Shown piece by piece: positions 14,594-17,911 of a DNA stretch of 64,000 nucleotides (the first letter of the stretch is position 1; each line of letters begins with the position of its first letter). The stretch lies in NCBI GenBank assembly GCA_938085105.1, contig CALKGK010000035.1:1-64000 (forward strand), given 5' to 3'. The stretch is from an uncultured Flavobacteriales bacterium (GTDB taxonomy: Bacteria > Bacteroidota > Bacteroidia > Flavobacteriales_D > Sanyastnellaceae). Both the position numbers and the translations under genes were made by a program. The notes below the pieces were generated by a model. It was given only the letters and a program-made list of their open reading frames with translations. It was not told the origin of the DNA and did no database searches.

Positions 14594-14623
14594 TTGGATA
14601 AAGCAAAAAAGTAATTATCTTTG
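14594..14623 (+). promoter_or_regulatory. Consensus promoter of rpsU
   Basis: TTG at 14594-14596, exactly 19 bases, then TATCTTTG at 14616-14623: a perfect match to TTG-N19-TAnnTTTG. Transcription should start around 14629, giving an 18-base leader AATTAAAAGAAAAGACA that contains no Shine-Dalgarno sequence. Confidence 0.8.
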
Positions 14624-14835: not shown

Positions 14836-14858
14836 GCCATTTTTAGAACGATATTTTG

Positions 14859-14892
14859 AAGCGGAATTCCTTAGGGGTTCCGCTTTTTTTTT
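14859..14892 (+). terminator. Intrinsic terminator after rpsU
   Basis: AGCGGAA at 14860-14866 pairs with TTCCGCT at 14878-14884, then a run of nine T from 14884 to 14892. A strong canonical terminator 25 bases after the stop codon. Confidence 0.88.
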
Positions 14893-14922: not shown

Positions 14923-15831
14923 ATGGAATCCTTGGAAAATCACCTCAATCAGTTTTTAGATTATTTACAGGCTGAGAAGCGCTCGTCTTCGCACACCCTC
15001 ACGGCCTATGAGAACGATCTCAGGCAGTTCTTTGAATATGCTTTAGAGGAGTTTGAAGTGAATAGCGTGGAGGAGATCACCAGTTCGGTGCTTCGTTCTT
15101 GGCTTATGCTCTTGAACGGACTCAATTACGAGGCGCGATCAGTTCATCGAAAAATCAGCTCTTTGCGCACTTTTTTTAAGTATCTGCGAAGGGAAGGAGT
15201 GTGCGATCATGACCCAATGATGAATGTGAAAGGACCTAAAATTCCGAAGCGACTCCCGAGCTACGTCGAAGCGGAAGCGATGGAGCGTTTGATCTTGTTT
15301 TTATCGGAAGATGAAGAGAATCAAGACTATAAAGCACTTCGAGATCGACTCATTGTAACCCTTTTTTACGAAACCGGTATACGACTTTCTGAGTTGATTG
15401 GATTGAAGGTGAGCGACCTTGATGATCGGCAGCAAATTAAAGTTCTTGGTAAGCGCAATAAAGAACGAATATTGCCCATTACCAAAGAGTGCGCTGCTCT
15501 CATCGAAAAGAGTTTTGAATTGAGGAAGATGGAAGGAAAAAGCCTTGCGGATCAAGATGCACTTCTGCTCAATAATCAGGGCAAAAGACTGACTCCAAAA
15601 TTTGTTTATGGAAGAGTCAATCACTACCTTGGTAAGGTGAGTACAGTGCAAAAGAAAAGTCCGCATATTTTAAGGCATACCTTCGCCACACATTTGCTTA
15701 ACAACGGTGCTCATTTGAACACCGTGAAGGAGTTGTTGGGGCATTCGAATCTCAGTGCAACACAAATTTACACTCATAATTCGATCGAACAGCTCAAGAC
15801 CATTCATCAAAAAAATCATCCGCGAGGGTAG
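14923..15831 (+). CDS. xerC: Tyrosine recombinase, XerC/XerD type
   Basis: A 302-residue site-specific recombinase. The N-terminal SAM-like core-binding domain covers about 1-90; the catalytic domain holds the full set of residues: R154 (ETGIRLSELIG), K177, H248 and R251 (HILRHTFATHLL), H274 (LLGHSN) and the nucleophile Y283 (IYTH). This is the size and motif set of chromosome-dimer resolvases rather than of phage or transposon integrases. The setting (rpsU upstream, hpf 34 bases downstream, then the tRNA-tuf operon) is conserved housekeeping context in Flavobacteriia, not a mobile island. Choosing XerC over XerD is a guess based on that context. Confidence 0.88.
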   Translation: MESLENHLNQFLDYLQAEKRSSSHTLTAYENDLRQFFEYALEEFEVNSVEEITSSVLRSWLMLLNGLNYEARSVHRKISSLRTFFKYLRREGVCDHDPMMNVKGPKIPKRLPSYVEAEAMERLILFLSEDEENQDYKALRDRLIVTLFYETGIRLSELIGLKVSDLDDRQQIKVLGKRNKERILPITKECAALIEKSFELRKMEGKSLADQDALLLNNQGKRLTPKFVYGRVNHYLGKVSTVQKKSPHILRHTFATHLLNNGAHLNTVKELLGHSNLSATQIYTHNSIEQLKTIHQKNHPRG

Positions 15832-15865: not shown

Positions 15866-16165
15866 ATGCAATTACAAGTTCATTCCATCCATTTCGACGC
15901 TGATCAAAAGTTGATCGACTTCATTCAAGAGAAAATTGACAAGCTCAGTTTATTCCACGATCAAATCATCGGCGGCGAAGTATTCCTTCGTTTGGAGAAT
16001 TCAGACACGAACGAAAACAAGGTTGCTGAAATTAAATTACTGGTGCCAGGCAAGGATTTATTTGCCCGCAGACAATGTAAATCATTCGAGGAAGCTACTG
16101 ATGTTGCTGTGGAAGCACTCCGCAGACAAATCAAGAAGCACAAAGAGAAAATGAGGGCCTACTAA
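15866..16165 (+). CDS. hpf: Ribosome hibernation-promoting factor, short form
   Basis: A 99-residue protein of the HPF/RaiA family, lacking the C-terminal dimerisation domain of long HPF. The beta-alpha-beta-beta-beta-alpha pattern is evident: MQLQVHSIHFDADQKL, then a helix with KLSLFHDQI, three strands and a C-terminal basic helix RRQIKKHKEKMRAY. It binds the decoding centre of idle 70S ribosomes in slow growth. It is co-directional with the xerC-like gene and ends 59 bases before the terminator that overlaps the tRNA/tuf promoter. Confidence 0.9.
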   Translation: MQLQVHSIHFDADQKLIDFIQEKIDKLSLFHDQIIGGEVFLRLENSDTNENKVAEIKLLVPGKDLFARRQCKSFEEATDVAVEALRRQIKKHKEKMRAY

Positions 16166-16194: not shown

Positions 16195-16224
16195 TTGCGC
16201 AGAGAAAAAGAGTTATTACATTTG
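16195..16224 (+). promoter_or_regulatory. Consensus promoter of the tRNA-tuf operon
   Basis: TTG at 16195-16197, 19 bases, TACATTTG at 16217-16224: a perfect Bacteroidota promoter. Expected transcript start is about 16229-16231. Its last base is also the first base of the terminator stem listed next, so promoter and terminator are superimposed. Confidence 0.85.
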
Positions 16225-16257
16225 CACTCCCTTAGAAAACGGGGAGTGCTTTTTTTT
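16224..16257 (+). terminator. Terminator of the xerC-hpf unit, overlapping the tRNA-tuf promoter
   Basis: GCACTCCC at 16224-16231 pairs perfectly with GGGAGTGC at 16242-16249, ten-base loop, then eight T (16250-16257). Read-through RNA from hpf forms the full hairpin. RNA initiated at the overlapping promoter would begin near the end of the 5' arm and retain at most two or three of its bases, so it should escape termination. Confidence 0.85.
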
Positions 16258-16287: not shown

Positions 16288-16361
16288 GCCGATGTAGCTC
16301 AGTTGGCCAGAGCAGCTGATTTGTAATCAGCGGGTCGGGGGTTCGAATCCCTCCATCGGCT
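16288..16361 (+). tRNA. tRNA-Thr (anticodon TGT)
   Basis: Acceptor GCCGATG pairs with CATCGGC; D-arm GCTC..GAGC, anticodon stem CTGAT-TTGTAAT-CAG with TGT, T-arm GGGGGTTCGAATCCCTC. 74 bases; CCA is not encoded. First of four tRNAs ahead of tuf. Confidence 0.95.
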
Positions 16362-16387
16362 CAGTTCTTTGAACTATTATTACCTGA

Positions 16388-16469
16388 GGGGAGATACTCA
16401 AGCGGTCAACGAGGACAGACTGTAAATCTGTTGGCTACGCCTTCGCAGGTTCGAATCCTGCTCTCCCCA
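16388..16469 (+). tRNA. tRNA-Tyr (anticodon GTA)
   Basis: Acceptor GGGGAGA pairs with TCTCCCC; anticodon loop ACTGTAAATC gives GTA; a long variable arm (class II) is present as expected for bacterial tRNA-Tyr; T-loop GTTCGAATC. 82 bases; CCA not encoded. Confidence 0.95.
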
Positions 16470-16494
16470 CACACATTGCATAAAAAAGAAATTA

Positions 16495-16568
<74 letters not shown>

Positions 16569-16579
16569 TATTTTTTTTT

Positions 16580-16651
<72 letters not shown>

Positions 16652-16723
16652 CAATTAGGATTATAAGAGTATTAGAGTAAGAATTTATTAAACAAAGAGT
16701 AGTAATTTAAACAAATCAAGGCT

Positions 16724-17911
16724 ATGGCTAAAGAAAATTTTGACCGTTCGAAGCCGCACCTCAACATTGGTACCATTGGTCACGTTGACCACGGTAAGAC
16801 CACTTTGACTGCTGCGATCACAACTGTGCTTGCGACGGATGGGTTGGCCCAAACAAGAGATTTCTCTTCTATTGACAACGCTCCTGAAGAGAAAGAGCGC
16901 GGTATCACAATTAACACTTCACACGTAGAATATGAAACGGGTAACCGTCACTACGCACACGTTGACTGTCCAGGTCACGCCGATTATGTGAAGAACATGG
17001 TAACTGGTGCTGCTCAGATGGATGGTGCAATCTTGGTTGTAGCTTCTACTGACGGACCAATGCCACAAACACGTGAGCACATCCTTCTAGGACGTCAGGT
17101 AGGTATTCCACGTATCGTTGTATTCATGAACAAAGTGGATATGGTTGATGACGAAGAGCTACTTGAATTAGTAGAGATGGAAATCCGTGATCTTCTTTCT
17201 TTCTACGAGTATGATGGAGATAACTCTCCAGTAGTTAAAGGTTCTGCACTTGGTGCGTTGAACGGAGAAGCGAAGTGGGTTGACACTGTGAAAGAATTGA
17301 TGGATGCAGTTGATAACTGGATCGAAATTCCACCACGTGATAATGAAAAGCCATTCTTGATGTCTGTTGAGGACGTATTCTCGATCACAGGTCGTGGAAC
17401 TGTTGCAACAGGTCGTATCGAAACAGGTGTAATCAACACCGGTGACGAGGTTGACATCTTGGGGATGCAAGAAGATAAATTGAAATCAACCATCACAGGG
17501 GTAGAGATGTTCCGTAAGATCCTCGACCGTGGTGAAGCTGGTGACAACGTAGGTCTATTGCTTCGTGGTGTTGATAAGAAAGAGATTAAGCGTGGAATGG
17601 TAATCGCCGCTCCTAACTCAATCACTCCTCACACTGAGTTTAAAGCTGAGGTGTATATCTTGAAAAAAGAAGAAGGTGGACGTCACACTCCATTCCATAA
17701 CAAATACCGTCCACAATTCTACTTCCGTACGACTGACGTAACTGGAGAGATTGAATTGGAAGCTGGTCGTGAAATGGTTATGCCTGGTGACAACGTTTCC
17801 ATCAATGTAAAATTGATCGTTCCCGTAGCTATGGACAAAGGTCTTCGTTTCGCAATCCGTGAAGGTGGACGTACCGTAGGTGCAGGTCAGGTAACTGAAG
17901 TAGTTAAGTAA
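16724..17911 (+). CDS. tuf: Elongation factor Tu
   Basis: A 395-residue GTPase that delivers aminoacyl-tRNA to the ribosome. G1 is GHVDHGKT (about 19-26), G3 DCPGHADY, G4 NKVDM, followed by domain II with [15 protein letters not shown] and domain III ending [11 protein letters not shown]. Codon choice is visibly biased (GGT, CGT, AAC), as for the most highly expressed genes. It is preceded by four tRNAs and followed by a long hairpin and tRNA-Trp, the usual Bacteroidota arrangement. Confidence 0.98.

Follow-up and report, generated by a model that had tools for sequence, protein, structure and literature searches.

A likely sigma-A promoter superposed on a candidate intrinsic terminator between hpf and the tRNA-tuf operon of a Flavobacteriales bacterium

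The hpf to tRNA-Thr intergenic region

The window analysed here is a 64,000-nt stretch of DNA from an uncultured Flavobacteriales bacterium (GenBank assembly GCA_938085105.1, contig CALKGK010000035.1, positions 1 to 64,000). Within it a recombinase gene and hpf are followed on the same strand by four tRNA genes and tuf, which at a guess form the strongest operon of the window, and the short region between the two groups carries promoter and terminator elements that share bases:

14923-15831, plus strand: XerC/XerD-like tyrosine recombinase, which opens the upstream unit; open reading frame, named by sequence resemblance only
15866-16165, plus strand: hpf/raiA-like ribosome hibernation factor, last gene ahead of the terminator; open reading frame, with homologues in the same place across the order
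16195-16197, plus strand: -33 element TTG, followed by a 19-nt spacer; read in the sequence
16217-16224, plus strand: -7 element TACATTTG of the Bacteroidota primary sigma factor; read in the sequence, with TAnATTTG conserved in related loci
16224-16232, plus strand: terminator 5' arm GCACTCCCT, which is also the discriminator and start region (-5 to +4); sequence and fold
16229, plus strand: predicted transcription start (+1), within the 5' arm; from the box-to-start distance in Flavobacterium psychrophilum (PMC9723704)
16241-16249, plus strand: terminator 3' arm GGGGAGTGC; sequence, fold and compensatory change
16250-16257, plus strand: T8 tract of the terminator; read in the sequence
16288-16362, plus strand: tRNA-Thr(UGU), first gene of the downstream operon; Rfam RF00005
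16364-16372, plus strand: boxA-like GTTCTTTGA between tRNA-Thr and tRNA-Tyr; sequence and position pattern in relatives, with a putative function
16388-16652, plus strand: tRNA-Tyr, tRNA-Gly and tRNA-Thr(GGU)
16724-17911, plus strand: tuf (elongation factor Tu); open reading frame

Eight perfect pairs between GCACTCCC (16224-16231) and GGGAGTGC (16242-16249) are extended by a U-G pair (16232/16241) to a 9-bp stem that holds six G-C pairs, with T8 directly 3' of it, so that 16224-16257 has the form of an intrinsic terminator, a G+C-rich stem of about 5-14 bp with a T-tract directly after. The hairpin has a free energy of -16.7 kcal/mol (z -5.1 against dinucleotide shuffles, none of 200 being as good). 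The promoter has the form used by the Bacteroidota primary sigma factor, TAnnTTTG at -7 with TTG about 19 nt upstream, and G16224 is both the last base of its TACATTTG box and the first of the terminator stem. The sequence-only reading had described this TTG-N19-TACATTTG element (16195-16224) as sharing its last G with an 8-bp stem and eight T, which can be read directly in the sequence.

A chance meeting of a terminator with a promoter-like string in AT-rich DNA would find some comfort in a default terminator scan, which returned eight matches where shuffles lead one to expect 8.9. Since this looser scan is no better than its shuffles, only a strict form (at least eight perfect pairs, at least five G-C and a T6 tail) was counted as evidence; it occurs twice on the plus strand of the window and was absent from 60 first-order Markov sequences as long as the window. 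The promoter pattern TTG-N19-TAnnTTTG likewise has two sites on the plus strand (at 16195 and, before rpsU, at 14594). Rfam 15 covariance models gave no match at 16224-16257, with only tRNAs above the gathering score. A default sigma-70 promoter scan was dropped as uninformative here, being built for the wrong promoter type. We also note that the second promoter-like site (14594-14623, ahead of rpsU) has a GCNNYCC start region too, and that a strong terminator-like site lies at 14858-14886 between rpsU and the recombinase gene.

Where transcription would begin decides what the hairpin can do. Mapped starts in F. psychrophilum place the sigma-A box TAnnTTTG at -12 to -5 (PMC9723704), and therefore G16224 would be -5 and 16229 would be +1, in agreement with the earlier proposal that transcripts begin near 16229-16231 and lose most of the 5' arm. 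A start at 16229 removes five of the nine pairs, so that the full terminator would be present only in read-through RNA; the RNA from 16229 folds into a 4-bp stem of -4.4 kcal/mol (no better than shuffles) that ends 5 nt from the T-tract. In a set of 53 overlap loci, the median length of stem upstream of +1 is 5 bp. At the predicted +1 stands a C, whereas A or G accounts for 86% of mapped starts in Bacteroides thetaiotaomicron (PMC7366714), which we regard as the main weak point of a start predicted to lie inside the arm.

Were the start to lie at the arm or ahead of it, RNA of the tuf operon itself would carry the full terminator and the hairpin would act as an attenuator with regulated escape, a reading that we consider unlikely. 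Elements of this kind do exist: the E. coli frd terminator doubles as the ampC attenuator (Grundstrom & Jaurin 1982, via PMC11838884), and there a single hairpin ends the upstream operon and stands at the start of the next one in a compact intergenic region, much as is proposed here. That hairpin (+17 to +37 of ampC) lies wholly within the ampC transcript and attenuates it, whereas the predicted start here is inside the 5' arm, so that the downstream RNA, unlike that of ampC, should escape termination. A start at A16226 would keep most of the hairpin (a 7-bp stem of -10.2 kcal/mol, 2 nt from the T-tract) and might bring partial termination, but the box-to-start distance sets +1 at 16229, and an unconditional terminator at +1 to +28 would be costly for a translation operon.

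Conservation, covariation and alternation with separate terminators

We drew hpf homologues from relatives, named GTDB genomes and the wider phylum, and read the region from hpf to tRNA-Thr in each. The counts cover loci with tRNA-Thr beside hpf and a TAnnTTTG in range, which sets aside several Cytophagales and other loci without tRNA-Thr in that place, together with three loci that have tRNA-Thr but no such box. Across the resulting 88 Bacteroidota intergenic regions the -7 box is kept almost everywhere, and 52 of the 88 have a hairpin with a T-tract that starts at, or a few bases from, the G of the box. The architecture is conserved from genus up to class; in Flavobacteriaceae the hpf to tRNA-Thr gap is only 90-97 nt with the overlapping hairpin and T-tract included. 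The spacer between the -33 and -7 elements is 19 nt in 53 of 80 related loci and 18 nt in 15 of them. In two loci (L125 and L138) the hpf to tRNA-Thr gap holds TACATTTG over a strong terminator, followed by a second promoter, TAAATTTG, without a terminator; this may reflect duplication of the promoter, after which the first copy came to act chiefly as a terminator.

The sequence of the stem varies considerably among relatives (for example GCACTCCC/GGGAGTGC, GCACCCC/GGGGTG(T), GCAGACC/GGTCTG(C), GCCGTCC/GGGCGGC and GCGCACC/GGTGCGT), and the compensatory change that marks an intrinsic terminator is present among its 34 distinct forms. In these, 96.4% of the nine pairs form, compared to 74.9 +/- 2.1% (sd) when the 3' arms were re-dealt among loci (maximum 82.0% in 2000) and 49-60% in a control with slid arms. 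Stem position -2 is C-G in 15 stems and G-C in 15; position -3 is A-T, C-G or G-C, and position -1 is T-A, A-T, T-G or C-G. Because these variable pairs precede the predicted +1, selection acting on RNA transcribed from upstream best accounts for the fact that they still pair. An inverted repeat that spans the start region of a highly regulated operon could also be a DNA palindrome bound by a regulator, for which sequence should be conserved; here the bases change (C-G to G-C at -2, A-T to C-G at -3) but go on pairing, and the T-tract is on one strand only, so that we rejected an operator for a transcription factor as highly improbable. Coincidence, to which we would give a negligible chance, is refuted by the class-wide conservation of the arrangement at one and the same base, together with the compensatory change in the stem.

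Where the overlapping terminator is absent, most loci own a separate one in the gap from hpf to the promoter, and this speaks for a role in termination. Of the 88 loci, 50 have the overlapping form only, 29 the separate form only, two have both and seven have neither (the last two groups being at odds with strict alternation), and this near-exclusivity gave a Fisher p value of 2e-14. On a single quick tree of Hpf and Tuf sequences, at least 11 changes were counted for the overlap trait and 10 for the separate terminator. When independent pairs were taken from well-supported branches only, five contrasts were left, almost none in the same direction, and the comparison had no statistical power; given this shortage of contrasts we added a likelihood test of correlated evolution, which on the same single tree rejected independence (likelihood ratio 25.9, 4 df, p 3e-5). 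Sphingobacteriales illustrate the alternative arrangement, with a separate terminator and no T-tract at the promoter in, for example, Daejeonella, Mucilaginibacter and Pedobacter (L080, L106, L132, L148 and L150). This pattern counts against the attenuator as well, for the T-tract is lost where a separate upstream terminator is present, even though the operon's need for regulation should be unchanged. Since overlapping and separate terminators are nearly exclusive, the hairpin very probably serves as the terminator of xerC-hpf.

Several proposals of the sequence-only reading can be judged from these data. It had suggested looking in Bacteroidota genomes for TAnnTTTG elements over a terminator 5' arm ahead of the tuf operon, and the survey of hpf to tRNA-Thr regions above is a search of that kind. 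It had also held that absence of the hairpin in close relatives with a conserved promoter would speak against it: such loss does occur, in 36 loci, yet 29 of them own a separate upstream terminator, which speaks for the proposal and not against it. Its central claim, that one stretch of DNA both stops read-through from hpf and starts the tRNA-tuf operon, gains support from the kept position, the covariation and the alternation of predicted terminators.

The start region as a feature of a promoter class

Genome-wide rates were taken from samples of about 755 kb of the bacterium's own genome, 800 kb of G013 and 400 kb of G088. In the 755 kb, TAnnTTTG stands at offset 0 or +1 from a terminator stem three times, with about 0.04 expected per offset, and among 331 terminators in the three genomes it stands at offset -1 to 4 four times, where 0.75 would be expected (p 0.007). 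Two of these four are the tuf locus itself; the other two lie at clpP/clpX (L154, near 9400, minus strand) and skp/murI (L208, near 10304). Superpositions with altered but still pairing stems are present in sets of loci at both clpP/clpX (L300-L304 and L306) and skp/murI (L330, L331, L336 and L345); the relatives among them are L301, L302, L304, L306 and, with a weaker box, L303 at clpX, and L331, L336 and L345 at murI. By these counts the predicted design is rare genome-wide and recurs between co-directional genes with short spacers.

Across 80 loci the bases G-5, C-4, C+1 and C+2 hardly vary, whether the terminator is present or absent. The extended motif TAnnTTTGCNNYCC has 39 sites in the own genome against 14 for a reversed control, and 43 against nine in G013; the sites precede, among others, tRNA-Met, Leu, Val, Pro, Glu and Arg, rpmH, rpsU and rpsL. 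The predicted 5' arm of the terminator is the conserved GCNNYCC start region of this putative class of promoters for translation and stable-RNA genes. As that region is kept with or without a terminator, the terminator seems to have arisen when a complementary 3' arm and a T-tract were added to a promoter start region that already existed.

A short stem that begins at about +1 is also frequent in the 31 loci without an overlapping terminator (CCCTA/TAGGG, CCATTC/GAGTGG, CCAATC/GATTGG and CCTTT/AAAGG, for instance; combined p 2e-8, with rows that are not independent). In the wider class, 5' stems exceed chance at sites that have a -33 element (10 of 29 below p 0.1; combined p 2e-6) but not at those lacking it (p 0.16). 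The presumed rRNA promoters and the tRNA-Val and rpmH promoters of the class also have stems that begin at +1 or +2. Transcripts of this kind may thus generally carry a stem at the 5' end. One could go further and propose that the structure was selected mainly as the 5'-terminal stem of the operon RNA, for stability or early elongation, with termination after hpf secondary. The persistence of the stem in terminator-free loci and at other promoters of the class, and the CC at +1/+2 in nearly all 80 loci, would fit this, but it leaves unexplained the T-tract, the pairing from -5 to -1 and the mutual exclusion with separate terminators, and the conserved CC may belong to the promoter rather than the stem. 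We thus think it improbable as the main reason for the structure.

Two further observations concern stable-RNA transcription. At G000:C44:89578-89925 (L262-L264) three promoter-like TAnnTTTGC sites stand in tandem; all three precede a stem that begins at +1 or +2, and two also precede a boxA-like sequence; going by these boxA-like sequences, with the 16S gene not located, they are probably rRNA P1-P3. In 90 loci a loose boxA pattern is found between promoter and tRNA-Thr in 45 and between tRNA-Thr and the next tRNA in 21, never in both places, and this movable site suggests NusB-type antitermination of the tRNA-tuf operon. A combined search for box and boxA across the phylum gave few matches.

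Proposed mechanism and relation to known systems

We propose, with a probability of roughly three in four, that one set of bases is both the sigma-A promoter of tRNA-Thr/Tyr/Gly/Thr-tuf and the intrinsic terminator of xerC-hpf, with the start site inside the 5' arm. Going by the anatomy and the comparison among relatives, polymerase arriving from hpf would transcribe all of 16224-16257, fold the 9-bp hairpin and stop on T8. Polymerase from the tRNA-tuf promoter would start at about 16229, as the Flavobacterium box-to-start distance indicates, and its RNA would be missing the five nucleotides at the base of the 5' arm; the leftover 4-bp stem, 5 nt short of the U-tract, should not terminate. With the promoter's GC-rich GCNNYCC providing the 5' arm, a lineage would have needed only a complementary 3' arm and a T-tract, and the sharing would fit terminator and promoter into a very short intergenic region (about 90-170 nt).

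The same order of genes, tRNA-Thr, Tyr, Gly and Thr then tuf, is found in the E. coli operon thrU-tyrU-glyT-thrT-tufB, where the promoter type differs and, to our knowledge, there is no superposed terminator. In pyrC of E. coli and Salmonella, a 5' hairpin that blocks translation forms or not according to the start position, which shifts with nucleotide pools. Hairpin formation would likewise depend here on where within the arm the RNA starts. One could imagine a comparable switch, in which moving the start from C16229 to A16226 or further upstream cuts tuf output and ties tRNAs and EF-Tu to nucleotide pools; we hold this to be very unlikely, and if true, the shifted start would leave most of the hairpin in the transcript of the tuf operon itself.

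The promoter at tuf matches those of Bacteroidota sigma-ABfr in its -33 TTG, 19-nt spacer and -7 TAnnTTTG (PMC7366714, PMC9723704), and differs in that the last G of the box, the discriminator and the start region double as a terminator arm, a shared use that none of the papers searched describes. Overlapping terminators and promoters are already known, and the predicted start inside the arm is a variant of them. A literature search, which had most subscription journals outside its range, brought up no case in Bacteroidota of transcription that starts within a terminator arm and nothing direct on promoter/terminator superposition, Bacteroides rRNA start sites or pyrC.

A start within the 5' arm would be a simple route to a terminator that acts solely on read-through RNA, with which a compact genome could insulate a strong operon within less than 100 bases. 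The alternation of overlapping and separate forms supplies evolutionary evidence for terminator function that is obtained without transcript data. The design may also find use as a compact insulator-promoter part for Bacteroidota, and the GCNNYCC start region with the 5'-terminal stem of stable-RNA promoters offers an additional testable lead.
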